Assembly (NCBI GenBank): GCA_025056455.1
Contig: JANWVY010000002.1
Location: forward strand, 854,737-918,736
Origin: Bryobacteraceae bacterium
Lineage (GTDB): Bacteria; Acidobacteriota; Terriglobia; Bryobacterales; Bryobacteraceae
Length of the DNA stretch: 64,000 bases
Reading direction: 5' to 3'
Position numbers and translations under genes: made by a program. Shown piece after piece: positions 52,383 through 64,000 of this stretch. The notes beneath the pieces are model-generated. The model did not search any database. It was given only the letters and a program-made list of their open reading frames with translations, and was not told the origin of the DNA. Within the stretch, counting starts at the first letter, position 1; the number at the start of each line of letters is the position of its first letter.

Positions 52383-55133
52383 TCATCCGTTCATGCAACT
52401 GCGCGTGGAAGGAAACAAACGAATTTCGTCATAACCAATTAGGCAATATTGATCCAGCGCGAATAAAACAATCGACTCCAACCCTTCAGCTTTTGCAAGA
52501 CTTACCTCCCGCTCCCACGGCGCAATCGCGTCGCTGAGACCAATTAGATGACTTCTCTTCCCACGAGCGAAGCCCCTCTGCTCAGAATACTGAATCGAGC
52601 TGAAACTCTTATTCAAATCCCTCGATCCGGTATAAATGAAACTTTCCGTTTTTAAGTTGTCTAAAATCGACGTGTTCCAGGAACTTGGATAGTTCACTAG
52701 CCGGTTAAATTGCCCTTCATTCACATCCGTCGGATAGAGCACTTCAAAGCGACAAGCGGGGAAATCGCTTCGCACGTAAGTCATAACGGCATTTGTGAAG
52801 GCGCCAATCAACCCTGCCATAAAAGAAGCTTCTTGGGCATAAATCGCTGGATCGGCTTCGCCACTGGGCACAGCTCTTGGGTAAAAACCGTAAGCTGCAA
52901 AAAACTCCGCCCGGCTATAGGCATCGTGAAATGGCAGACCAGAGCCATCATAAGGAAAATACCACCACTGTACCTCGCCGAACTGCAGGTACGGTACACA
53001 ATCCGCCTGGGCCATGATACTCGCCATTTCGCGGTAGACTTCCTTCCAGTAGCTCAAACTGGCTGGCGAAAAATTCGTCTGCAAGGCTGGCGTGTTTAAC
53101 ACCACTGCATTCCCACTGGGATATCTCTGGGCAATGCCCGCCTCGACAGACGGATCCCCATGCTGTAATTCCATACTAAATGCAGCTGTGACATCCAAGC
53201 CGTAGTTTTTTAGTGCACGATAAAAACTTCGACTCCAATCTCGCACTGCCCGGTTGAGACGCGGTGACGCTGCTGTGTCGGTTCGCCACGCTCCATCTTG
53301 GCCCCCCGTCAGGGTCGGCCCGCTCACTTCGGCACGAAAATGGCCGCTTTCAGGAAAAGCACTGATAGTTATAGAGTTCCCATCCGCCCCCATCGATCGG
53401 GAATAAATCGTGAGTTGTGCTCCGCTAGCCTCCGCCCACACGCTCGTGTAGCCGCTATTTAAAACGAGTTCAAACGCCTTGGCGATGTCCTCAGCGGTCT
53501 CCCCAAGTAGATTTAAGTGGTTGATTACCGTTTGTGACGACGGTGGCTGTCCAACCCGGTTAATTATGATCTGCGTGATCTCGCTGAATCCAGGAGTGCC
53601 AAAAAATGTGATGGTTCCTTTTGCATAGCTGTGACCGCGCCTTATTAATTCGTAAAACCATAAAGCCCCCACATAATGATTCACCCTCCCTTTGAACCCG
53701 AGTGACACAATTTGCCATGCTGTTCGCTCCGGCGCTAATGCGAGCGAATGGTCCGTATCCCAGTCGGTTGCTAACGTCAACTTATCGTCAGCAGCTACAG
53801 GCTGGACGGAATCACTAGGGATCGCAATTTCGAGAAAATCAAAATAGAAGTAGGTGCCCGCAGCCCCAACATGGGATATCGCCACAGAATGCTCTCCCGC
53901 TTCATACTCACCCAAGAACTGTCTTACCAGAATATCTTCGCCAGCGAGCTGAAGACTGAAGTTAGTGGAATAAGTATCATCCACAGACACAGAAATCGCT
54001 GAGCAGTTTGCTGCCCGCCTCGTACCGAGATACAACCGATGGCTGTTACTCGCTCGGTAGAACGCCATCACGCCCGATCCGGGCGTGCTCGTGTAGTGAA
54101 TCGATCCCCCCGAGTAATTGCCGAACGCCTTAGCCCAGCTCCCGCTCAGCTGAATCTGATTTGACGAATCTTCGATGCGATAACTTCCCGGCCCCGCCAC
54201 CTGATACGCCCGGTTATTTCCTATAACAGACCAGTTAGTAACTCGAACTTCGAATTCTGACCTGACGAAGTGAGCGGGCTGAAGCGCTGCGGCATAAGTC
54301 CACCTCATCTTTCGAACATCCGAGGTAGGAACGGTGATCCCCTGAGTATCGACTAGGCTGCCAAAATTGAGCGTCACCCTCCATTTCGTCGGTGAGACAC
54401 CGCCTGAGAATCTCGTCGCCTTAGGCAGCCAAAACTCCGTCCGAGCCCCCGCCACATAGCCGTACACCCCGACCCGGTTTCCGTTGGCTCCTACAGTTGA
54501 ATTGGACTCCGTGAATCCTGCACCCACATAGGTTAAACGGATCTGTTGTCCAACTCGCTCCGCATCAACGGTTGGCGACAAAGCCTGGATTGTTGCAGCC
54601 AGCGCATCCAACACGGATTCAACTGTATCGTTTGCCGTGATTTGATAATTATAGTGTTCGTCCTCCCACGCCAACCCGACATAGTCGCCCGCTGTAAGCT
54701 CTCCCCCTAGCGTGAACTCGGCTCGTGCACACACATATTGGCCCTCGATCGGAACTGCATAATCCTTCAGACGCACAAAATAGAGCTGCTCACCCGTATC
54801 CCCGCTAGCCCAAATTCGCAGCATCGGCCAGTCCACAGTTGGATAAACCGTGGAGTCTATTTCCATGCAGTTTATTCGTACCTCATCGTAGCTTAATGTC
54901 AAGCCGCTCAGGTTACCGTCGGGCAGATTCCGAAATCGTGGGTGTTCAAAAACGTTGTCGCGGTTCCATTCTACGACTGCCCAGTCAAACTGTTGCCGCC
55001 AAGTGCCAGACAGCACAAAGCTAGATTCAGTGACTTCACTTAGCGCGGCAATGGCAGAAGGTCGTTCGAAGTAACACTGCAGATCCCGGTCAGGCCTTAA
55101 TTTCACCAGCGTCTCCGCCATGTCTGTCCTCAC
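52383..55133 (-). CDS. Phage tail fibre-like protein with non-contiguous-finger-type and glycosidase-like regions
   Basis: This is a 916-residue protein (912 if the ATG at 55121 after AGGACAGAC is used; the longer form starts with a GTG overlapping the hub stop). The central part has a segment TITFFGTPGFSEITQIIIN with ANGNRVGVYGY and GADGNSITISAFPES elements, as in the non-contiguous finger domains of phage fibres. The last 270 residues look like a TIM-barrel glycosidase: AVRDWSRSFYRALKNYGL, VPYLQFGEVQWWYFPYDGSG and SIVLFALDQYC. It is the final gene of the tail module and likely the receptor-binding or surface-degrading fibre. Catalysis is not shown. Confidence 0.65.
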   Translation of the reverse strand: MRTDMAETLVKLRPDRDLQCYFERPSAIAALSEVTESSFVLSGTWRQQFDWAVVEWNRDNVFEHPRFRNLPDGNLSGLTLSYDEVRINCMEIDSTVYPTVDWPMLRIWASGDTGEQLYFVRLKDYAVPIEGQYVCARAEFTLGGELTAGDYVGLAWEDEHYNYQITANDTVESVLDALAATIQALSPTVDAERVGQQIRLTYVGAGFTESNSTVGANGNRVGVYGYVAGARTEFWLPKATRFSGGVSPTKWRVTLNFGSLVDTQGITVPTSDVRKMRWTYAAALQPAHFVRSEFEVRVTNWSVIGNNRAYQVAGPGSYRIEDSSNQIQLSGSWAKAFGNYSGGSIHYTSTPGSGVMAFYRASNSHRLYLGTRRAANCSAISVSVDDTYSTNFSLQLAGEDILVRQFLGEYEAGEHSVAISHVGAAGTYFYFDFLEIAIPSDSVQPVAADDKLTLATDWDTDHSLALAPERTAWQIVSLGFKGRVNHYVGALWFYELIRRGHSYAKGTITFFGTPGFSEITQIIINRVGQPPSSQTVINHLNLLGETAEDIAKAFELVLNSGYTSVWAEASGAQLTIYSRSMGADGNSITISAFPESGHFRAEVSGPTLTGGQDGAWRTDTAASPRLNRAVRDWSRSFYRALKNYGLDVTAAFSMELQHGDPSVEAGIAQRYPSGNAVVLNTPALQTNFSPASLSYWKEVYREMASIMAQADCVPYLQFGEVQWWYFPYDGSGLPFHDAYSRAEFFAAYGFYPRAVPSGEADPAIYAQEASFMAGLIGAFTNAVMTYVRSDFPACRFEVLYPTDVNEGQFNRLVNYPSSWNTSILDNLKTESFIYTGSRDLNKSFSSIQYSEQRGFARGKRSHLIGLSDAIAPWEREVSLAKAEGLESIVLFALDQYCLIGYDEIRLFPSTRSCMNG

Positions 55134-58100
55134 AGGCGAATCGTAACGGTTAAATCGCGACCGGGTGTTGTCTCCGGCGTCTGCCCAACGGACACGATAT
55201 CGAGCGTCAGCACACTGCCGCTTTCAAGCGGCGATAGCTCGAGACCACTAACGATATTGGAGCTCGTGGCGCCGGCAGGTATCGTTAGGTTCGCGTACAC
55301 AGCGCCATTTTTCCTTAATCTCAGTTGGATTGGAGCACCCAGAGGCGCCTGCTGGACAACCGCCAGTATATCTCTTACCACACGCGCATCCTCGACAATA
55401 AGAGGGGGCGCAATTGCGTCTTTGATTGCTAAGTAGCCGTCCACTTGAATCGTAAACTGCCCTCCAGACAGGGTTCGTAAACCATAGTCCGTCGATCCCG
55501 TTAGCTTAATCGCCCGTGTCGGACTGCTTCCAACCTGATTTGTAACAAATAACTCTGCCGATGCGACTCTGACCATAGGTAGATAAATTGGATGGGCGAA
55601 CATTCCGCTGGCTGGCGTCCCAAAAAACATTCTCGGAAAAGGAATTACAAATACTTTACGGTTTAAATGGTAGACCCTAGCACCGGCCGCATGCGCGGAC
55701 GCCGTAGTTGTGTGTTGGCCCCGCGACACCTCATATTCCCACCCCCCGTCCGTCACTGCCTCCACCCGCATCACTTCCTCCCCAACTTGAACGGAACTGC
55801 CAGCTACGGCGCCTCCAGGGTGAGAAAGTTGCAAGGTTGTTGCTGCAGGCGAAACCGCCGCTGCGAGCGTAGTCGCTGGGGGACCTTGAAGCTCGTCGTA
55901 ATAGAACAGCGTCAGCGTTCCAGACTCAACACTCTGAGTGTTTGTGAGACTCTCAAAGGATACACCGACTAACTCTAAAGTCCCTTTGCCCTTCCAACTG
56001 AGCCCGAAAAGCGGTGCTCCCGGAACTCCTAAGTCGCCACCTCTGCCACCGGTTCCGCCCAGTGTCCAGCGCGTAACAGGAGCGAGCCCAGGCTCCGTCT
56101 CTATACCTGCCCCGTTCGCCGATCGGCCTGTAATGTGCACAGTCGAACCGCCACGGTTAGGAACCTCAAACTCAGCGACCCTTCCTTGTGTCCTCGAACC
56201 AAAGTGCCAGTTTGATTCTGCGATAACAAACTGACTCGAGGTATTCGGAAGAATGCTCCACTCGCTACTCACAATGAGTGTGTTCGTGTTACTCGATTCA
56301 ATCGTTCGCTCTTGTCCGGCCCCAGCTCCAGAAACAATTCTGACCCTCTTTCCCCGGTATTGGTTTGTAGACCAATTCATCCCCGAGCCACTCACCGTCC
56401 AGCGTGTCGCTGCGGTAACAGCGACGGGTGGATGTAATTCCGTCCTCCAATAAAAATTCGCATGGTCAAAATGCTCATCCGCCGGGCCAGTCGCCATCGC
56501 GCTGAGACCAGGATCCGTAAACTGGTCGTGAGGTGACACACTTGAGGCGATCCGGAACAGTCGCTGGGGAATGCTCCCGCGATAAACGTGGAATGCTGTC
56601 GCATCTGGTGGTAACGAAATGCCGAGGAGCACGACACGATATGAGTTCCCAGCACCCAAAGGCGCGCTCACCACAAGTGAGAGTGGACCTTCTTCCCCCT
56701 CTTGATTCACCGCGCTGATCGCGTAATACAAGATTCGCCCACCTGAAAGCGTTCCGCCACTTGAGTGTATTTCCGGAGACAGCGATAGCCACGGTGCGCG
56801 CCGGCTCCGCGCGGTCGGGCGGACCGGCGGATGATACCTCACGCTGAGCGTCACCATCCCACTCCCATCCGAAAGCGTCGTCGCACCTTCGGTAACCTCA
56901 AACTCCGTCTCGCCATCCCCGTTCATCGTCACTCCAACAAGCGGCCGCGGCGCTCCATTCCCGAAAGCGGGCTGTACTGTCGCTCCCCCAACCATCGATC
57001 CACTCACTTCATACCAACCATCCTCATGGACCTGGGCCACAACATGGATCGTCCGCATGTTCAAATCGGCGATAATTCGAATCACTCGAAATAGCTTCCG
57101 GTTGAGCCCTTCTTTGAGATAGGTGATGGTAATTAGGTCCCCTGGCCGTAACCCAACGCCTTTCACAGACGTATCAAATTCGACATACAAATTACCTCGA
57201 ACCGATTTTCTGAGCTGCACTTGCAGAGCTCTTTGGGCATGGGCGAAATTTGTTACGCCAAGCGCCGGCAGATTCCACGTAACTTCGCCACAACCCCTCG
57301 CCAGGTCGTCCGCGTCCGACAACACTATGCTATCCCGCTGGTAAAAATTAAATTCATCATCAAACTCTAAACGAATTCGGTTGGGAACGTCCGCCGTTGT
57401 ACGAGACCACAAGCGAATGCTCGCCGCCCCGCTCGTCAGCCGCACAATACCAGAGGCGCCGTTCGTACCGTCCCCAAATTCATAGGCCGGCCAGCCCGAA
57501 CCAAGCGGATTTATGCTGTTGCTCGTCCACGGTTTCGTGGGTTGCTGTAGGCTTAATGGGCCCTCAACACATGCCTCTAACCTACCGTCCGCCCCATAGC
57601 GTAGATAGATCCCACAGGAATATTTCAAGCCACGCACAAGCTCTGCCAAGCTTTGCCGGCGCCGAATCACTAAGTTACAGCGAAAACGAGGGACGAATAC
57701 ATCTCCCCCTTGTAGGTCTTTGGCACTTACAGTCTCTTCACAGTACTGCGCGCACCGGGCAAAGGAGGCGACATCCATTTCCCCTGGGCTCCATCCGGCG
57801 CGCCTCAATAAGTCCAAAAGCACCCATGCCGGGTTCGCTGTGAATGATTCGGATAGAGCGTTCCCGCTCACATCGTATCTTGGCAGGATAAGCCCTTGTA
57901 CGAGCGCTTCAATCCTCGGTATCTGTGTGCCTGCGTGACTAGATCTCGGCACCCTAGCTTCCAGATAGGCAATTCCCCCGTAGGGACCATCTATGGGTGA
58001 ACCAGTGCTATCCGAATAGCTGCCACCGGCACTCCCGTTTCGTTCTCCTCTGCTTACCAGCCGGTACCATCCACTGGCACTAAGATCCTTCCCTTCCTCG

Positions 58101-59026
58101 TATCTTGGCAGCTCAACCCGGTTGGCCATTACCTTGATCACCTCGGAAATGGGACCTGCTGCAATCAGGGCTCCTAGGTGAGTGCACTCTGCTTCGTTCC
58201 TAGCAAACACAATCACCGGCTGCGTCCAACAGGTGCCATATATGAGTGGAACGTATTCCGCCGCGTTTTTTTCCTCACTAAACACCTGGACGTCTGCAAG
58301 GTTTATTCCAGGCGCTAGTTCCATCCCGGAAAACCGGCCTGTTAGCCTCCCCGCAGAATCCCGGCTGTACATGCCCCTTAGTTCGCAGTCCTGTCTCGAA
58401 TAGTTACAGGTCGCGAAAGGCTCCGCTCCGTTTAAGTTCCCCCTACCACCCAGCTGGTCCGCCGAGTAGCCGCATCCATAAAAAGGCGAGTAACGTCCCC
58501 TGGTCCCCCCTTCGACAGCCTCTGCCCTTTGTGCTTGATTCGAAGGGAAAATCCACGCGCAACGTCTTTGTACTCGCATGGTCGGCAGGAACGTACGGTG
58601 AAAACTGAGGCGACTTTGAAAAACCAACCTTGCTGTTCCCTCTGTCAGCTCCGTGGCCTTGTTACCCTCACCCTGAAAAAGCACCGTCGCTGGTGAAGTC
58701 GCCGCACCGCTCTCCAGGTCGAAAAACACAAACCTCGCAGTTAGCTTGGCCCCCTTGAATCCTGTAGATCCCTCAACCTGTGACACATAGGAGTCCGTGT
58801 TCGCAAGCAAAAGAGTGAGCCGTCCGCTACCGCTACTGTCGTCCTCGCCAGGCACCGCAAGCTCAAACGTCCCGTACTTGACCACCCGGGGCGTATACTG
58901 TTGCCCCTCCCAAATCAGGCTGTGAGTGCTCCATCTTTCCACCGTTCCATCTACCAGCTCGCAGTCAAATAACACCAGCGGCGTGTCAGTGATTAGCGCT
59001 TCCTTGAGTTCGTAAATCGTTGGCAT
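55130..59026 (-). CDS. Tail tip/hub protein, gpL-like plus gpJ-like
   Basis: This is a 1,298-residue tail-tip protein from the ATG at 59026. Residues 1-230 resemble lambda gpL/DUF2163-type tail proteins (DTPLVLFDCELVDGTVERWS). They include a four-cysteine set C-x28-C-x21-C-x6-C around QRRCAWIF, FYGCGYSAD and CNYSRQDCELRGMY, which may hold an Fe-S cluster as in gpL. The middle, to about 750, is gpJ-hub-like (YVPLIYGTCWTQPVIVFARN, RLEFDDEFNFYQRDSIVLSD, GLRPGDLITITYLKEG). The C-terminal 550 residues are Fn3-like and fibre-like. It overlaps the tandem tail gene or nearly so, and precedes the fibre gene. Confidence 0.75.
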   Translation of the reverse strand: MPTIYELKEALITDTPLVLFDCELVDGTVERWSTHSLIWEGQQYTPRVVKYGTFELAVPGEDDSSGSGRLTLLLANTDSYVSQVEGSTGFKGAKLTARFVFFDLESGAATSPATVLFQGEGNKATELTEGTARLVFQSRLSFHRTFLPTMRVQRRCAWIFPSNQAQRAEAVEGGTRGRYSPFYGCGYSADQLGGRGNLNGAEPFATCNYSRQDCELRGMYSRDSAGRLTGRFSGMELAPGINLADVQVFSEEKNAAEYVPLIYGTCWTQPVIVFARNEAECTHLGALIAAGPISEVIKVMANRVELPRYEEGKDLSASGWYRLVSRGERNGSAGGSYSDSTGSPIDGPYGGIAYLEARVPRSSHAGTQIPRIEALVQGLILPRYDVSGNALSESFTANPAWVLLDLLRRAGWSPGEMDVASFARCAQYCEETVSAKDLQGGDVFVPRFRCNLVIRRRQSLAELVRGLKYSCGIYLRYGADGRLEACVEGPLSLQQPTKPWTSNSINPLGSGWPAYEFGDGTNGASGIVRLTSGAASIRLWSRTTADVPNRIRLEFDDEFNFYQRDSIVLSDADDLARGCGEVTWNLPALGVTNFAHAQRALQVQLRKSVRGNLYVEFDTSVKGVGLRPGDLITITYLKEGLNRKLFRVIRIIADLNMRTIHVVAQVHEDGWYEVSGSMVGGATVQPAFGNGAPRPLVGVTMNGDGETEFEVTEGATTLSDGSGMVTLSVRYHPPVRPTARSRRAPWLSLSPEIHSSGGTLSGGRILYYAISAVNQEGEEGPLSLVVSAPLGAGNSYRVVLLGISLPPDATAFHVYRGSIPQRLFRIASSVSPHDQFTDPGLSAMATGPADEHFDHANFYWRTELHPPVAVTAATRWTVSGSGMNWSTNQYRGKRVRIVSGAGAGQERTIESSNTNTLIVSSEWSILPNTSSQFVIAESNWHFGSRTQGRVAEFEVPNRGGSTVHITGRSANGAGIETEPGLAPVTRWTLGGTGGRGGDLGVPGAPLFGLSWKGKGTLELVGVSFESLTNTQSVESGTLTLFYYDELQGPPATTLAAAVSPAATTLQLSHPGGAVAGSSVQVGEEVMRVEAVTDGGWEYEVSRGQHTTTASAHAAGARVYHLNRKVFVIPFPRMFFGTPASGMFAHPIYLPMVRVASAELFVTNQVGSSPTRAIKLTGSTDYGLRTLSGGQFTIQVDGYLAIKDAIAPPLIVEDARVVRDILAVVQQAPLGAPIQLRLRKNGAVYANLTIPAGATSSNIVSGLELSPLESGSVLTLDIVSVGQTPETTPGRDLTVTIRL

Positions 59027-59030
59027 CGAC

Positions 59031-59819
59031 CTACCACCCCACAACCTCAATTACTGTGCTGTGCGCATTTAATCCTTCTGTTGTCCACATCAAGCGGTCG
59101 CTCACAAACCTCGCATTCGAATACACACCACCTTGCTGGTCAGTTTCGCGATAATGAGATACACCGAGCTGCGCCTCGAGCTGCATCCCCACCAGGTCTA
59201 TACTTGCCCCACTCGGTACGTATACACCGCACTCAACCTCATCTCCCGTCCCTCCAACGGACCCTGAAACGGAGTATCTCCGCCAAACACTCTCTGCACG
59301 TACGTCCTTCCGAAGCTGCCTTCCGGCAGCCTCGATCCCTAAACCAATCACTTCTGGCTCCGCCGCTCTGAGAAACACGCTAAGGCAGTAGTGGAACCCT
59401 GCCGGTATCGGCAGCACTTGAAATACCCGTTGCTCACTCACCGAGGGATTGGTCACGTTGCTCGCCCGCGCCGTCCCCCAAGGATCCGACTGTCCAGCCA
59501 CGACCGATATACTGCCAGTTCGCTGCCACGTCGGCTGTAAAAAGTCTTCGCTGAATCGAAGAAGATTGTCTGAGGGATCCAAAAATGTGAATTCCCGCAC
59601 CGAGCCCCGACACTCGAAAAACAAATTCTCAATCGCCGCCCGTTCTTGGTCCCGAAGGCATCGAAACGTTAGTCGCCACGCCTTGCGTCTCGATCCGGGG
59701 TCACTATATCGCCACTCCTTCCCACCCTCAGCCTCTACAATTACGGTCCGAAAAATCAGCGACTCGACGTACGGATATTGCGCAGTCGTCGAGCTTTGCA
59801 ATTGAGGAAATACTCGCAT
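59031..59819 (-). CDS. Phage tail protein (DUF2460-like) with carbohydrate-binding-like C-terminus
   Basis: This is a 262-residue protein. The first 95 residues match the DUF2460-like tail fold (VFPQLQSSTTAQYPYVESL, SRRKAWRLTFRCLRDQERAAIENLF, REFTFLDPSDNLLRFSEDF). The rest resembles a jelly-roll carbohydrate-binding module (TARASNVTNPSVSEQRVFQ, FHYCLSVFLRA, VGMQLEAQLGVSHYRET), common in phage adsorption proteins. The N-terminal part is paralogous to the next upstream gene. It probably sits at the tail tip between the tube and the hub. Confidence 0.7.
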   Translation of the reverse strand: MRVFPQLQSSTTAQYPYVESLIFRTVIVEAEGGKEWRYSDPGSRRKAWRLTFRCLRDQERAAIENLFFECRGSVREFTFLDPSDNLLRFSEDFLQPTWQRTGSISVVAGQSDPWGTARASNVTNPSVSEQRVFQVLPIPAGFHYCLSVFLRAAEPEVIGLGIEAAGRQLRKDVRAESVWRRYSVSGSVGGTGDEVECGVYVPSGASIDLVGMQLEAQLGVSHYRETDQQGGVYSNARFVSDRLMWTTEGLNAHSTVIEVVGW

Positions 59820-59821
59820 TT

Positions 59822-60178
59822 CTATTCGTGACTTGAGATGACCAGGAGCTTTGTTCGCCCGTCACATTTAGCCCACTGCTCCATCCGTAGCGTATCGTGA
59901 GCAAAAGTACTTATATACTGCAAGCCGGTTTCGGGGTCTGTGAATAGAAACTTTACTCCTCGCCCTCGGATACTTTTTGCAAATAATCGAATTCGGTCGA
60001 TCTCCTCCTCGCTGAGCAGAGACAAATCAATCAACCACTGTCTCCTGGCGCTTCTTCGTTGCAAGAAGCACTGCTCGTTATTGTCTAGAAAACGGTGGCG
60101 GAACGTCTGAAATTCGATCGATTGTCGGAAGGGGTACTGAGTAATTGCGTTCGTGGATAACGGCGGGAAATGCAACAT
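59822..60178 (-). CDS. Small phage tail protein, DUF2460-like
   Basis: This is a 118-residue protein aligning along its whole length with the N-terminus of the following 262-residue protein. It shows LHFPPLSTNAITQYPFRQS, SARRQWLIDLSLLSEEEID and GVKFLFTDPETGLQYIS in the same order. It lacks the carbohydrate-binding part. It starts 4 bases after the tape-measure-like gene. Its position suggests a distal-tail or tail-tip adaptor. Confidence 0.65.
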   Translation of the reverse strand: MLHFPPLSTNAITQYPFRQSIEFQTFRHRFLDNNEQCFLQRRSARRQWLIDLSLLSEEEIDRIRLFAKSIRGRGVKFLFTDPETGLQYISTFAHDTLRMEQWAKCDGRTKLLVISSHE

Positions 60179-60182
60179 CTCC

Positions 60183-60740
60183 CTACTCCCTCATCACATC
60201 CTGAAGTGAGTGTGAGTGCAAAATAGCATCCTTCACCGCAGCCGCTATCTCTGCGCTCCGGTCCAAGAAGGATCGACTGTCAAGAGCCTGAATCTGGATG
60301 ACAACCGGGGCGCGAGCCCACGGCTGCCAGCCATCCACCATCGCCCTCGGCGATCCCTCAGCCGAAAAGTCAGCCATCCAAAGGTTATCGCCCGTACTCA
60401 TCGCCTCGCGATGAATCCTTTCTGGCATTAACACCCTCATCCCAAGTGAGTGCTCCCCGCGGCTATCGGAGCTCGTATCTGAAAGCAAGAAACTTAGTAA
60501 ATTCGGAACAAGATCTGCTGCACCTCCCAGCCCGGGGCGTCTTCGTGGCCCCGTCCGCACTCCGACTCCTCTCGCAGCTTCCACGGCAGTCCTAACCTTC
60601 TCAATCGTTGGGAGGACACCAAATCCCGCTGACAGGAAGCTCCACCCAGACAAAGTCCTAGCGCTTCCCGCGGCGGCGCCTGGTCGAGCCCCTAATAGCT
60701 GAACCGTTCGGCGCAAGAGATCAAACAAGTTAGTTACCAC
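60183..60740 (-). CDS. Very short tape-measure-like tail protein
   Basis: This is a 185-residue protein in the tape-measure position, directly after the tail chaperones and before the tail-tip genes. The GTG start overlaps the stop of the chaperone extension by 11 bases. The C-terminus carries the motif ALDSRSFLDRSAEIAAAVKD followed by ILHSHSLQDVMRE, which recurs at the ends of many tape-measure proteins. The long coiled-coil and hydrophobic body usual for these proteins (600 to several thousand residues) is absent. The N-terminus has a glycine/alanine-rich segment near VLPTIEKVRTAVEAARG. It would build an unusually short tail, or be a minor subunit. Confidence 0.6.
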   Translation of the reverse strand: MVTNLFDLLRRTVQLLGARPGAAAGSARTLSGWSFLSAGFGVLPTIEKVRTAVEAARGVGVRTGPRRRPGLGGAADLVPNLLSFLLSDTSSDSRGEHSLGMRVLMPERIHREAMSTGDNLWMADFSAEGSPRAMVDGWQPWARAPVVIQIQALDSRSFLDRSAEIAAAVKDAILHSHSLQDVMRE

Positions 60741-61418
60741 CTGTTTTCACCCCTCCCCGTACTTCGTTCTCCAAAATCAGCATCGCTTCCACCGTACGCG
60801 CATCCCATTGCAGGACCTCAGTAGCCTTCGATCTTTTCCACACCAGGAACGTCTCGAGCCAAGCCATACTCTGGCCTGTAATCACACTCTTCGGACAGCG
60901 ATTGGTCGCTACTCCGCCTCCAACCCACACCACCTCGCCGTCTCCCTCCAAGGTCAACCAACCGCAGTTGCGTTTCTTTTCGAGGCCGTCTCGACGACAT
61001 TCCTCGCATTGCCACCCGGCCTTCCTCGAACGATAAAAGTGGTATGCGAGAATTAGTTTTTTCTTTCTTCTTCACGAAGACCAAGTTGACTGGTAATTGC
61101 CTTCAACGCCTCTTCAACCAGTTCTTCTGGCCCGTACTCCACTAAGCTGGATGGCGTGGCTGACTTCCCATCAATTTTCAGGCCCTCGACCCCCACTAAG
61201 CCCCATTCCAGGTACGCTGAAGCAATTTCCCGCTCTAAGCGCTGCGCCTCTAGTTGCTCGGCAACACTACTCCCTGCCTTGAAACACTCGATCTTCTGAG
61301 CGAGTTCGCTCACTTTCCGGATCAGCTCCGTCCGCTGTGCAAACGAAACCTTTCGCACGCGCAACACAACACCTGGCGCAACACTGGATCGAACTTCGAC
61401 ACAGCTCTCGTACTCCAT
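60730..61418 (-). CDS. Tail assembly chaperone GT-type fusion made by -1 frameshift
   Basis: The predicted long product has 229 residues. Ribosomes read the 121-codon upstream frame to the A AAA AAC heptamer at 61062-61056 and slip back one base. They then continue at 61056 through 108 more codons to the stop at 60730. The extension has a cysteine set WQCEECRRDGLEKKRNCG with a later TNRCPKS, and a C-terminal helix (WLETFLVWKRSKATEVL, ARTVEAMLILENEV). In lambda, gpG and gpGT made this way are both needed for tail assembly, and the T part binds the tape measure. The extension's own weak TTG start at 60957 would omit the cysteine-rich part. Confidence 0.75.
61003..61062 (-). promoter_or_regulatory. 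Programmed -1 frameshift signal: slippery heptamer plus stem-loop
   Basis: Minus-strand order: AAAAAAC (61062-61056), zero-frame AAA AAC, is followed at once by the TAA stop. After a 5-base spacer comes a stem of CTCGCAT (61050-61044) with ATGCGAG (61009-61003). The stem is extended by CCAC with GTGG across a small bulge, closing a loop of about 23 bases. Heptamer, frame and spacing all match known phage -1 frameshift sites. Confidence 0.8.
61053..61418 (-). CDS. Tail assembly chaperone, G-type short form
   Basis: This is a 121-residue protein made when ribosomes do not slip. It follows the tail-tube-like gene by 3 bases. It opens with a strand-rich domain (ESCVEVRSSVAPGVVLRVRK), then helices (VSFAQRTELIRKVSELAQKI, ASAYLEWGLVGVEG) and a region that ends at LGLREEERKN, with the frameshift heptamer in the last two codons. 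Size, position and frameshift all fit the gpG-type tail chaperones of siphoviruses. It is expected to be present in excess over the fused form. Confidence 0.75.
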   Translation of the reverse strand: MEYESCVEVRSSVAPGVVLRVRKVSFAQRTELIRKVSELAQKIECFKAGSSVAEQLEAQRLEREIASAYLEWGLVGVEGLKIDGKSATPSSLVEYGPEELVEEALKAITSQLGLREEERKN

Positions 61419-61421
61419 ACC

Positions 61422-62594
61422 TCAACCAAACGCAACGCAAATCTCGTCCTCTGTCAGTCCATGCGCCGTCATGTTTGAGAACACCCACTTCAAACGGCTT
61501 TCCTGGTCATCGTACTGAGGTGCCTCAGCTATGACGCTCTTCAGCATCACTCCCATCAACTGTCCGCTTTGTTGACCCAACTGAAACATCACCTGGATCG
61601 GAGATCGTTGCCTTGCGGCCTGATACAGCATCCGCGTCGCAGTGTCGTCCTGGCTGTATAAGGCCAGCTTCATCGTCACCTCTCTCGGCCCAAGTCCAAA
61701 ACCCCGTGGCGTAATGCTTCCGAATTCCCGGTTCCGCATCTCAATACCGTTTCGGACGACTATCTCCGCCGCTGTCACTGTGAAGAACTGCTCTGCTGGA
61801 GCTCCTAACCACGCCTGCCCTAAATGTCCAGGAACCGGTTGCGATGTATAAGATGCAATCGCCGGCTCTACCGGGTACGAGGACAGCCCGCCCTGTCCAC
61901 TCACAAACGACGCGCTGTCAATTACATCCGCCGCACGGCCTCGAAACTCTAACTCATGGAAGTCGCCGTTCACCGAAATTTTCATCGCCTCCACCACAGC
62001 CCCGTACACAATCCTCTGAACCGCGCTGTCCGGGCTCCAATAGTCAAAAATCGAAACACTCGGCAGTTTCGCGGCAGGCAGGAAACTTGTTGTAGGTCCG
62101 ATCTGCGACCCTGGAGTGGGACTTGCAGAAAACGGGCAATTAAGCTCGACAGTAACCTCATCTACCAGCTGCGCGACAAATCTCAACTCGCCGCCGTAAC
62201 TTATACCTTGCCCCACGCCTAGTTGGTGAGGAGTAACAAACTTCACCCGCTGAGGACTCGGAATCGACTCCACCACTCCTCCGCTAAATATCTTCGGCCC
62301 GTCCCCTAGAGAAGCCTCCACAAGCGCACTACAACTGGGATTATTGGTCGAAGGTAGCCAGGACGTATGGTAGGCGCTGAGAAGAAATGTCGTTTCCTTC
62401 CGCAGCGGTGATGCAAGTGCCGGTTGGCTCCTCGTCCCGGTCTTATCTCTCCGCAGCGGGACGATCGTTTCTGACTTTACAGCGAAGGATAGAATAGGGA
62501 CTCTCCGAGCATTGCCTACGGGCGGGATTACACCATACGCCCCTTCAACCGCGGCATACACTCTGTTATTCCGTGACGATATATAAGATGGCAT
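61422..62594 (-). CDS. Major tail tube-like protein
   Basis: This is a 390-residue protein just upstream of the tail chaperone gene, the usual place of the siphovirus tail-tube gene. It opens PSYISSRNNRVYAAVEGAYG with a VPILSFAVKSETIVPLRRDK segment, similar in layout to phage tail-tube proteins of the phage_tail_2 type. It ends with a strand-rich domain (LGPREVTMKLALYSQDDTA, SPIQVMFQLGQQSGQLMG). It is larger than typical tubes of about 150-250 residues, so an inserted domain is likely. Function rests on gene order and general features. Confidence 0.6.
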   Translation of the reverse strand: MPSYISSRNNRVYAAVEGAYGVIPPVGNARRVPILSFAVKSETIVPLRRDKTGTRSQPALASPLRKETTFLLSAYHTSWLPSTNNPSCSALVEASLGDGPKIFSGGVVESIPSPQRVKFVTPHQLGVGQGISYGGELRFVAQLVDEVTVELNCPFSASPTPGSQIGPTTSFLPAAKLPSVSIFDYWSPDSAVQRIVYGAVVEAMKISVNGDFHELEFRGRAADVIDSASFVSGQGGLSSYPVEPAIASYTSQPVPGHLGQAWLGAPAEQFFTVTAAEIVVRNGIEMRNREFGSITPRGFGLGPREVTMKLALYSQDDTATRMLYQAARQRSPIQVMFQLGQQSGQLMGVMLKSVIAEAPQYDDQESRLKWVFSNMTAHGLTEDEICVAFG

Positions 62595-62605: not shown

Positions 62606-63082
62606 TTACTCAACACTCATATTCACGTCGATTCCAATCCGGGCAGCCTGTATGAATCCCTTGCCCCCCGGTTTGACTGCGGAGAAAGACACCTCGTAAC
62701 GGCCGCCAAAAAACACTCCATAGCCCCAGTCTCCGCGGTGTAAGTTGAGAACTCTTAAAACCTTTTCCACTTGATGTAGTAACTCCTCCTCGATCCTTTC
62801 CACCCGCTCCCGGCTCACCCTCACCTCGACAACAAGCCGAACGACTCCCGAAAACGTACGAAACCTTTCTGCAAGGTTGTTTACTAACCGTTCCACATAA
62901 AGATAGGCGACTGGATAGCGAATTACACCCCGTTCTGCGAGATCTGTGTTGACGTTACACATCTTCACCTCCAGTCCCGCATCCTCAGCCGAATCTTGAC
63001 CATCCAGCACCACCCCGAGGCCTGTCTCGCCGCTGAGAATGTCCGCTAGCAGACGGCAGGCGCGATTCGTAATCCCTAACAT
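62606..63082 (-). CDS. Tail terminator-like protein
   Basis: This is a 158-residue protein between the connector-like gene and the tail-tube gene. It mixes strands and helices in the order expected for tail terminators (RYPVAYLYVERLVNNLAERF, VVRLVVEVRVSRERVERI, LLHQVEKVLRVLNL), and has a loop (WGYGVFFGGRYEVSFSAV) near its C-terminus. Terminators cap the tube and bind the connector. The assignment comes from position and size; no motif proves it. Confidence 0.5.
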   Translation of the reverse strand: MLGITNRACRLLADILSGETGLGVVLDGQDSAEDAGLEVKMCNVNTDLAERGVIRYPVAYLYVERLVNNLAERFRTFSGVVRLVVEVRVSRERVERIEEELLHQVEKVLRVLNLHRGDWGYGVFFGGRYEVSFSAVKPGGKGFIQAARIGIDVNMSVE

Positions 63083-63085
63083 CAG

Positions 63086-63826
63086 CTACCCTCTTTGCAG
63101 CCCATTGCTCGCAGTAACAAAGAAATCGGGATCCTGCCCAGCTGAGGGCGGATCTCCCTCCCCCAGCTCAGGCCCTTCTACCTGCCAGCTTCCCGGTATG
63201 CCAAGAGCGCCACTATTCTGCTTCCGAACTTTGTCTTCCAGTTCACCGGCATACACATGCCATCCGCTGACCCCATCGGGAACACTCGCGGGACTAATCA
63301 AAAGCCCTCCAGGCGCGGTCAGTGTCACAGTTGCTACCTCACTGGCGTGCCCTGTCTGGCCACCTGTTCCTACCCAGCTCATCCTCACAAAATAAGTCCC
63401 TGCCGGCAGCAACCCCGTAGTTACAGTCACTACCGGTCGCATCGCCCGCGGAATCGGGTTTCTTACACAACCCAGCCCGTTTTCGTACACAAACCTCTTT
63501 GTTTCCCTCGCCAGCTTGTCGTATTCCAACCATTTCGCGCGATAACGCTCATGAAGCTGACCGTAGTAAGCGTCACGGTAAATCAGAGCAAGCGCCCGCT
63601 CCATGACCCACCTTCGTAACGGTTCCGTCACGACTACGGAGCCCAACGAAACCCCTAGGCGCTCTCTGCGCAAAAAAGCCTCGATTTCGGTCGCCACCTG
63701 CTCCCGAGCTATGTTTAGCTTTTCCGCACTGTCGAGGTTGTAAGCGCTTCCGATCTCTAGTAAGTTTGCATCGTACTTCAGCAGCTCCTGCACCGAAGGA
63801 ACTGCCCGGTCTGTGAAAAGAGCCAT
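63086..63826 (-). CDS. Head-tail connector-like protein with Fn3-like C-terminus
   Basis: This is a 246-residue protein. The first 125 residues are helical (LNIAREQVATEIEAFLRRER, PLRRWVMERALALIYRDAY, YDKLARETKRFVY) and resemble small head-tail connector proteins. The second half is a strand-rich Fn3-like module (RPVVTVTTGLLPAGTYFVRM, DGVSGWHVYAGELEDKV). It has good spacing to the partial gene upstream, whose end carries AGGTG as the ribosome site. Assignment is by context. Confidence 0.45.
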   Translation of the reverse strand: MALFTDRAVPSVQELLKYDANLLEIGSAYNLDSAEKLNIAREQVATEIEAFLRRERLGVSLGSVVVTEPLRRWVMERALALIYRDAYYGQLHERYRAKWLEYDKLARETKRFVYENGLGCVRNPIPRAMRPVVTVTTGLLPAGTYFVRMSWVGTGGQTGHASEVATVTLTAPGGLLISPASVPDGVSGWHVYAGELEDKVRKQNSGALGIPGSWQVEGPELGEGDPPSAGQDPDFFVTASNGLQRG

Positions 63827-63829
63827 CCT

Positions 63830-64000
63830 TCACCTCTTTTCTCGTCCCGCTGACTTTCGCGTTCTCGCCGAGAGTTCGCTCAGCACCTGAACCTGGATCC
63901 GAGACCTTTCCGCCAGCTCCTCCGCCTCCTCCCGCGCCTTTTGGGCTGCCTCATAATACTTCTCCGTCTCAGACGCATCCGCCAGGCGAGCTCGCCCCTC
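63830..64000 (-). CDS. Partial protein with charged helix, head-side gene of the phage module
   Basis: The last 56 codons of a gene continue beyond the right edge. Translating the minus strand gives a helix rich in Glu, Lys and Ala (KYYEAAQKAREEAEELAERS) and a basic tail (TRKSAGREKR). The TGA stop at 63830-63832 lies 3 bases before the next ATG. It could be a scaffold or head-assembly protein, but the fragment is too short to identify. It shows that the module extends past this window. Confidence 0.5.
   Translation of the reverse strand, partial: EGRARLADASETEKYYEAAQKAREEAEELAERSRIQVQVLSELSARTRKSAGREKR

Follow-up and report, generated by a model that had tools for sequence, protein, structure and literature searches.

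The window, i.e. the whole stretch of DNA analysed here, comprises 64,000 nucleotides of a Bryobacteraceae genome (Acidobacteriota; assembly GCA_025056455.1, contig JANWVY010000002.1, forward-strand positions 854,737 to 918,736), and one of its ends cuts through a cluster of phage-like head and tail genes on the minus strand. Between the tail tube gene (PF18906) and a tape-measure-like gene of this cluster lies a small gene, here called G, encoding a putative tail assembly chaperone whose reading frame closes on a slippery heptamer and is followed by an open -1 frame, here called T.

Frameshift site and downstream stem

The 0-frame product G (121 amino acids (aa), 61053..61418, minus strand) is read from a minus-strand open reading frame (ORF; 61418-61053) ending in AGA AAA AAC TAA, which places the heptamer A AAA AAC (61056..61062, minus strand) in the 0 frame with TAA (61055-61053) immediately after it. 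Beyond the heptamer the -1 frame runs for 108 codons to a stop at 60732-60730, and this extension (T, 60730..61056, minus strand) carries four cysteines in the arrangement CxxC, C and CP; a GT fusion would count 229 aa (121 + 108). Downstream, a predicted stimulatory stem (61001..61052, minus strand), drawn from folding and covariation, consists of outer arms at 61052-61044 and 61009-61001 and an inner helix of 61042-61037 with 61017-61012. Seven perfect outer pairs, CTCGCAT/ATGCGAG (61050-61044 with 61009-61003), begin 5 nt past the heptamer, and the second helix is stacked on this stem. Folding of the 60 nt from 61055 to 60996 gave -19.2 kcal/mol (z -2.21), a value equalled or bettered in 6 of 200 shuffles.

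An earlier sequence-only reading had placed the heptamer in the last two codons before TAA, a -1 frame open for 108 further codons to 60730, a cysteine set in T and a stem 5 bases downstream of the heptamer. All four hold: the heptamer base by base (61062-61056, minus strand), the frame by translation from the sequence, the cysteines as invariant residues in the -1-frame sequences described below, and the stem as a seven-pair outer helix with a second, stacked helix in the fold. A AAA AAC occurs 14 times in the window compared to 10.8 expected (standard deviation 3.1), and since the heptamer is common on its own, the case for frameshifting rests on context and conservation. What lies beyond chance is that the heptamer sits at the very end of G, that the -1 frame is open and conserved, that a stem follows, and that all of these recur in relatives.

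Conservation in relatives

Two sets of relatives, defined by searches with the tube and the capsid, were scored (G plus a number denotes a genome, L plus a number a locus). The first set consists of 34 of 61 genomes with the tail tube protein, the window's own included, and nine IMG/VR contigs, i.e. 43 copies; the contigs of G016 and G030 stop short of the site, leaving 41 copies, of which 40 have A AAA AAC in the G frame and a long open -1 frame. In G028 the site reads AGAGAGAAAC in place of the heptamer. The second set, gathered with a major capsid profile, holds the best 80 of 216 named genome loci and the best 80 of at least 594 IMG/VR loci, which overlap each other and the tube-based first set. 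G was recognised in 117 of these 160 loci and G together with T in 108, with the heptamer in frame and T in the -1 frame in 105 of the 108, and with an immediate stop after the heptamer in 102 of the 105. The three exceptions are L123 and L205, which both represent the G028 site and hence a single contig lineage without the heptamer (G028 = L123 = L205), and L134, where a run of N covers the site. Among the nine loci with G and no T, which include L155 described below, the contigs of L242, L203, L245, L251, L263 and L224 end within the G match or shortly after it, L115 breaks off within 133 nt of its end, and L244 keeps the heptamer on a contig that ends 75 nt further on.

Heptamer and frame, checked on the 43 and then on the 160 loci for the losses that would speak against the sequence-only reading, are thus mostly kept, the exceptions being the G028 lineage, a distant copy in G137 with A AAA AAT at the slippery site, and L155. 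The latter (L155:9332-9710) truly lacks T and the end of G, with the tape-measure-like gene directly next, either by natural loss or by assembly error. In six genomes (G013, G019, G034, G037, G044 and G057) the stop does not follow directly behind the heptamer.

Covariation of the stem was assessed on 121 distinct sites, 108 of them in one register and 82 left once close copies were removed, with positions numbered from the first base after the heptamer. Positions 8-51, 9-50, 10-49, 14-44, 15-43 and 16-42 are paired in 82 of 82 and most are invariant, and pair 6-53 occurs as G-C in 38, C-G in 15 and A-U in 5 sites, being paired in 63 of 82 overall. At position 11, C11 goes with G47 in 49 of 49 sites and A11 with G47 in 6 of 27, where A11-U48 is possible instead. 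Of all column pairs separated by at least 4 positions, 11-47 and 6-53 rank highest in mutual information; these scores are inflated by shared descent as the statistics ignore the tree, but shared descent would not single out precisely these two pairs, and we count the covariation as support for the stem. Synonymous recoding proved a weak test of stem stability (in 35 of 40 cases stability exceeded the mean, with a mean z of -0.76), so the argument for the stem rests on covariation. The 13 sites in the other register mostly have longer loops and a similar outer stem when folded. In L236, L232, L153, L152, L258, L266, L180, L140, L139, L128 and L145 the outer stem is kept and the apical loop is longer, in many cases forming a hairpin of its own.

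The T frame itself bears the mark of selection on a protein. All 29 close pairs compared gave an omega below 1 with a median of 0.17 (two of the 29 repeat other pairs via duplicate contigs), compared to a median of 1.40 for the same DNA read in the 0 frame. Four cysteines and two tryptophans are invariant in all 141 T sequences, 120 of which are distinct. Judged by this purifying selection, the -1 frame is translated. Searches with 48 G and 48 T sequences found no convincing family in PHROGs or Pfam, with isolated single-member matches at best (E 0.00062). At a threshold of E 0.1, the Pfam matches of the G sequences did not include PF11836, the chaperone type of RcGTA g10, and neither G nor T profiles returned a relevant match in the PDB. 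In a comparison of predicted folds, the HK97 tail chaperone (2ob9) ranked joint first for G.

Cluster architecture

The cluster measures 16.6 kb from terminase to tail, in the order 91-aa ORF, terminase, portal, scaffold, capsid, three proteins of 117, 246 and 158 aa, tube, G/GT, tape-measure-like protein, two DUF2460-type proteins, tail tip and TIM-barrel protein. The first five genes lie beyond the window end (L002:981-5686) and include a terminase of the Terminase_6 family, a capsid of the P22 coat family (P22_CoatProtein PF11651, E 3.5e-16) and a scaffold (PHROG 206, E 2.2e-6). Terminase motifs that we take to be Walker A and Walker B are kept in 30 of 32 and 32 of 32 sequences, respectively. 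In the window's genome, the terminase ORF (L002:4062-5453, C22 about 922061-923452) contains a run of undetermined bases together with a repeat, as would be seen at an assembly gap, and its start is uncertain.

Within the window, all on the minus strand, follow the 117-aa protein truncated by the window end (63830..64000), a 246-aa protein of head closure type (63086..63826; PHROG 8040, head closure Hc3, E 7.6e-6), and a 158-aa protein (62606..63082) that matches no family and might be a tail terminator by its position, which is conserved in relatives. The tail tube protein (390 aa, 61422..62594; PF18906 Phage_tube_2, E 1.1e-9) precedes G/GT, and the short tape-measure-like protein (185 aa, 60183..60740) comes after it. 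The latter matches PHROG 3779 (tape measure) weakly (E 0.013), it is similar at its C-terminus to a long tape measure ORF of L300, and its length ranges from 165 to 253 aa with a median of 215 across 37 copies. Then come a protein of distal tail type (118 aa, 59822..60178; PF09343 DUF2460 below the Pfam cut-off, E 0.0045), a DUF2460 protein (262 aa, 59031..59819; PF09343, E 8.1e-9), the tail tip protein (1306 aa, 55130..59050; PF13550 Phage-tail_3, E 1.4e-7; PHROG 31 central tail fibre J, E 1.3e-25) and, as the final gene, a TIM-barrel tail protein (916 aa, 52383..55133; PF23845, E 3.1e-18) that many relatives carry in the corresponding position. PDB searches with two of the tail proteins gave nothing useful. 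The cluster lies between a sulfatase gene and a beta-helix gene, and no tRNA genes were found in the 35 kb searched.

Relatives are collinear with nearly equal spacing as far as their contigs extend, and capsid identity is 75-88% among genome copies and reaches 94% in IMG/VR. In G044 (L091), about 3.6 kb of extra sequence with long ORFs lies between the tape measure and the first DUF2460 gene.

Distribution

The capsid gene was present in 168 of 200 sampled genomes of the family, 159 of which hold a single copy; among the high-quality genomes, 118 of 140 have it. It occurred in 86 of 120 genomes sampled from the order, in 62 of 249 from the class (59 of them in the family) and in 2 of 297 from the phylum, both again in the family. 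Taxon labels of the 80 named capsid loci point to Acidobacteriota groups in 78 cases, most frequently to Bryobacterales, and to other taxa in two (L136 and L146). Among 50,697 phage records there were 36 capsid matches, all below 60% identity (at most 28.5% among the 12 matches listed), 22 portal matches (at most 27.3% among the 12 listed) and no match to the tail tube. None of the 80 capsid-bearing IMG/VR contigs (the best 80 of at least 594) exceeds 20 kb, and a scan with the tube found 2 of the 26 contigs listed above this size, at 22.5 and 23.8 kb. A capsid gene in one genome (G014:C548:15720-16628) has one internal TAG and is a possible decayed copy or a sequencing error.

Descent, chromosomal sites and selection

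A cluster tree built on portal, capsid, tube and tail tip was compared with rpoB, which was recovered from 26 of the 30 genomes queried. Three of these were set aside, G017 for having the N-terminal part only, G001 for an ORF without the picking motif and G029 for lacking a tail tip match, and the comparison covers the remaining 23. The two trees have 13 of 20 splits in common, whereas shuffled labels gave a mean of 0.23 and a maximum of 3; the other seven splits differ. Distances agree as well (Mantel r 0.72, with 0 of 5000 permutations as high, and likewise for 20 family genomes alone), and the window's genus forms a single, fully supported clade in both trees.

Eight of the 34 genome copies, six from the window's genus and one each from two other genera, lie within some kb of genes for acetolactate synthase, ketol-acid reductoisomerase and citramalate synthase, and in three of these eight the opposite flank also carries an aspartate kinase gene (roughly 8 kb past the cluster in G018). 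The window's own copy is not at this site, and the ilv genes recur as flanks in 7 of the 51 named genome loci whose upstream sequence was long enough, five of the seven being contigs of the first set. A single conserved site for all copies was thus rejected, some of the contigs being too short to judge.

A search for tyrosine integrases (PF00589), which did not cover serine recombinases, gave no match less than 50 kb from the cluster in any of 13 genomes, as far as their contigs extend; the nearest PF00589 match was 54 kb off (G015), and contigs end sooner on one side in G007, G011, G015 and G133. Omega was below 1 in every computable comparison over six pairs, with a maximum of 0.54 for the 158-aa protein in one pair. 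It ranged from 0.00 to 0.12 for the capsid (six pairs), and from 0.04 to 0.12 for the portal and 0.05 to 0.21 for the terminase (four pairs each).

Discussion

Position of the gene, conservation of heptamer, stem and -1 frame, and selection on T support the proposal of the sequence-only reading that this is a tail chaperone gene of the G/GT type, with which the joint first rank of the HK97 chaperone for the predicted G fold is compatible, and a programmed -1 frameshift in it seems very probable. Most ribosomes would stop at the TAA after AAC and yield G, while some, delayed by the stem, would slip by -1 on A AAA AAC and yield GT; by analogy with lambda, G might bind the tape measure protein and T recruit tube subunits. 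We infer frameshifting in cells and chaperone function, as well as particles, DNA packaging and transfer as discussed below, from comparative sequence data. The tape measure of the cluster is far shorter than the one known from lambda. As in lambda gpG/gpGT and the G/GT family of dsDNA phages (PMC5009743), a -1 slip close to the 3' terminus of a small gene flanked by those for tube and tape measure would give two products, and the predicted G fold ranks the chaperone of HK97 joint first. In contrast to lambda, the stop stands right behind A AAA AAC in nearly all relatives, the stem covaries, and the cysteine-rich T has no known family.

T might alternatively be made without ribosomal frameshifting, from a start of its own, through reinitiation, or through slippage of RNA polymerase at the six consecutive A, as runs of A can slip in general. 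A start codon is indeed found upstream in the -1 frame in 90 of the 141 T sequences, but 43 of the 141, the window's copy among them, have no start upstream and none ahead of the first invariant cysteine, and in these 43 sequences only, an independent start is excluded. Moreover, these routes would leave a covarying stem at a fixed distance unexplained, and likewise Leu1 and Ala4 just after the slip site, which are invariant in 48 of 48 sequences. We regard such an origin of T as highly improbable.

The larger question is what the cluster does. To our knowledge, gene transfer agents have been proven in few lineages. A phage structural cluster without a tyrosine integrase nearby, vertically inherited and under purifying selection, has the anatomy of a gene transfer agent as far as genome comparison can tell. 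The operon would then be a terminase-portal-capsid-tail cluster inherited vertically and maintained by selection across most of the family, built for a short tail and no ordinary prophage. It would probably act as a gene transfer agent packaging host DNA and descend from siphophages that already had this frameshift. That the cluster is a gene transfer agent is likely in our view, and we put the probability of frameshift and gene transfer agent together at roughly two in three. In its fullest form, which we favour with some reservation, the proposal is a family-wide gene transfer agent of independent origin in Bryobacteraceae, with a P22-type head, a siphophage tail shortened several-fold and a chaperone frameshift kept under selection since before the genera split, now serving the bacterium. 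Several observations weigh against this proposal, i.e. the 32 of 200 family genomes without the capsid gene, the chromosomal sites that differ between many lineages, the slightly lower G+C content of the cluster (54.1% compared to 58.6% and 56.5% in its neighbours), and a tube identity of only 43-53% within the genus, which is low for a gene passed strictly from mother to daughter even though the tree agrees.

An alternative would be an ordinary or decaying prophage with a lambda-like frameshifted chaperone, where repeated infection by a host-specific phage group mimics family-wide spread. The genes are phage genes, they are filed as viruses in IMG/VR, their G+C differs slightly from that of their neighbours, a more phage-like relative exists in G133, and the Bryobacterales proviruses reported in PMC11924767 are probably these elements. 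Yet repeated infection hardly predicts an agreement with rpoB far above shuffled labels, a common host neighbourhood in three genera, a single copy in most genomes and purifying selection on all genes compared. It also sits badly with the lack of a tyrosine integrase up to 50 kb away in all 13 genomes, as far as contigs allow, and with 0 of 80 (capsid) and 2 of 26 (tube) listed IMG/VR contigs above 20 kb, given that lysogeny and replication genes would need more. Overall we consider a prophage unlikely. The expectation of the sequence-only reading that the frameshift layout would recur in homologous prophages held for the layout, which is conserved, but not for the prophages, as most homologues look like copies of a single, vertically inherited element that resembles a gene transfer agent. 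A domesticated cluster that moves no DNA, e.g. a particle that kills or delivers protein, would share the vertical descent, which says nothing about the packaged cargo. A headless tail particle, however, would need neither terminase nor portal, whereas both evolve with an omega of 0.04-0.21 in four pairs and the terminase keeps its presumed Walker motifs; this explanation appears rather unlikely, too.

Among known gene transfer agents, RcGTA of Rhodobacter capsulatus likewise has a compact head-tail cluster. RcGTA bears DUF2460 and Phage-tail_3 domains, as do the tail genes here. Its capsid is of the HK97 type with a prohead protease, unlike the P22-type capsid and scaffold gene of our cluster. 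According to the accessible parts of the relevant papers, its tape measure parts sum to 216 residues for a 49-nm tail (PMC7296036), close to the median of 215 here, whereas its two chaperones are separate genes, g10 and g10.5 (PMC7296036, PMC11409702). The cluster proteins searched gave no sequence match to RcGTA chains in the PDB. Since the head is unlike that of RcGTA, we do not place the cluster in the RcGTA family; at most it might work like RcGTA.

Neither a gene transfer agent nor a domesticated prophage in Acidobacteriota was found in the open-access papers searched, subscription literature being outside this scope. In the accessible text of PMC5900883 the phrase appears once, as 'horizontal gene transfer agents', and that of PMC6172770 counts soil virome contigs resembling known gene transfer agents via taxon names outside Acidobacteriota. 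The provirus group (i) of PMC11924767 is family-wide in Bryobacterales with a conserved gene order and Paludibaculum fermentans as a named member, and although these are probably the same elements as our cluster, the accessible part of that paper describes them as proviruses and mentions no gene transfer agent, vertical descent or frameshift. An attempt to tie the cluster to this group via IMG/VR names failed, as the named records were not among the matches listed (26 for the tube; the best 80 of 596), and identity is unproven by this route. If the proposed gene transfer agent is real, its presence in nearly all members of one family of soil Acidobacteriota would offer a concrete and testable route for gene exchange in soils, and many contigs filed as viruses, with at least 594 capsid-bearing stretches in IMG/VR, would be host genes.

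A hint at the origin of the cluster comes from G133, which carries the cluster and also the more phage-like relative at C1 about 857-880 kb, in a stretch of about 840-880 kb (L299, L300:4015-20000). The two are alike in their capsids (66% identical), in the same heptamer and -1 frame (T) and in a similar tape measure C-terminus, and differ in the tube (22% identical) and in an integrase gene at C1:824202, about 33 kb from the terminase of the relative. The simplest history would be a siphophage with the same frameshift, of which a descendant was captured and its tail shortened. The frameshift might further serve as a handle, as the ratio of G to GT could be compared against a tape measure several-fold shorter than that of the prophage relative, whose ORF counts 1145 codons from its first start compared to about 179 aa (counted by hand) in the cluster copy of G133.
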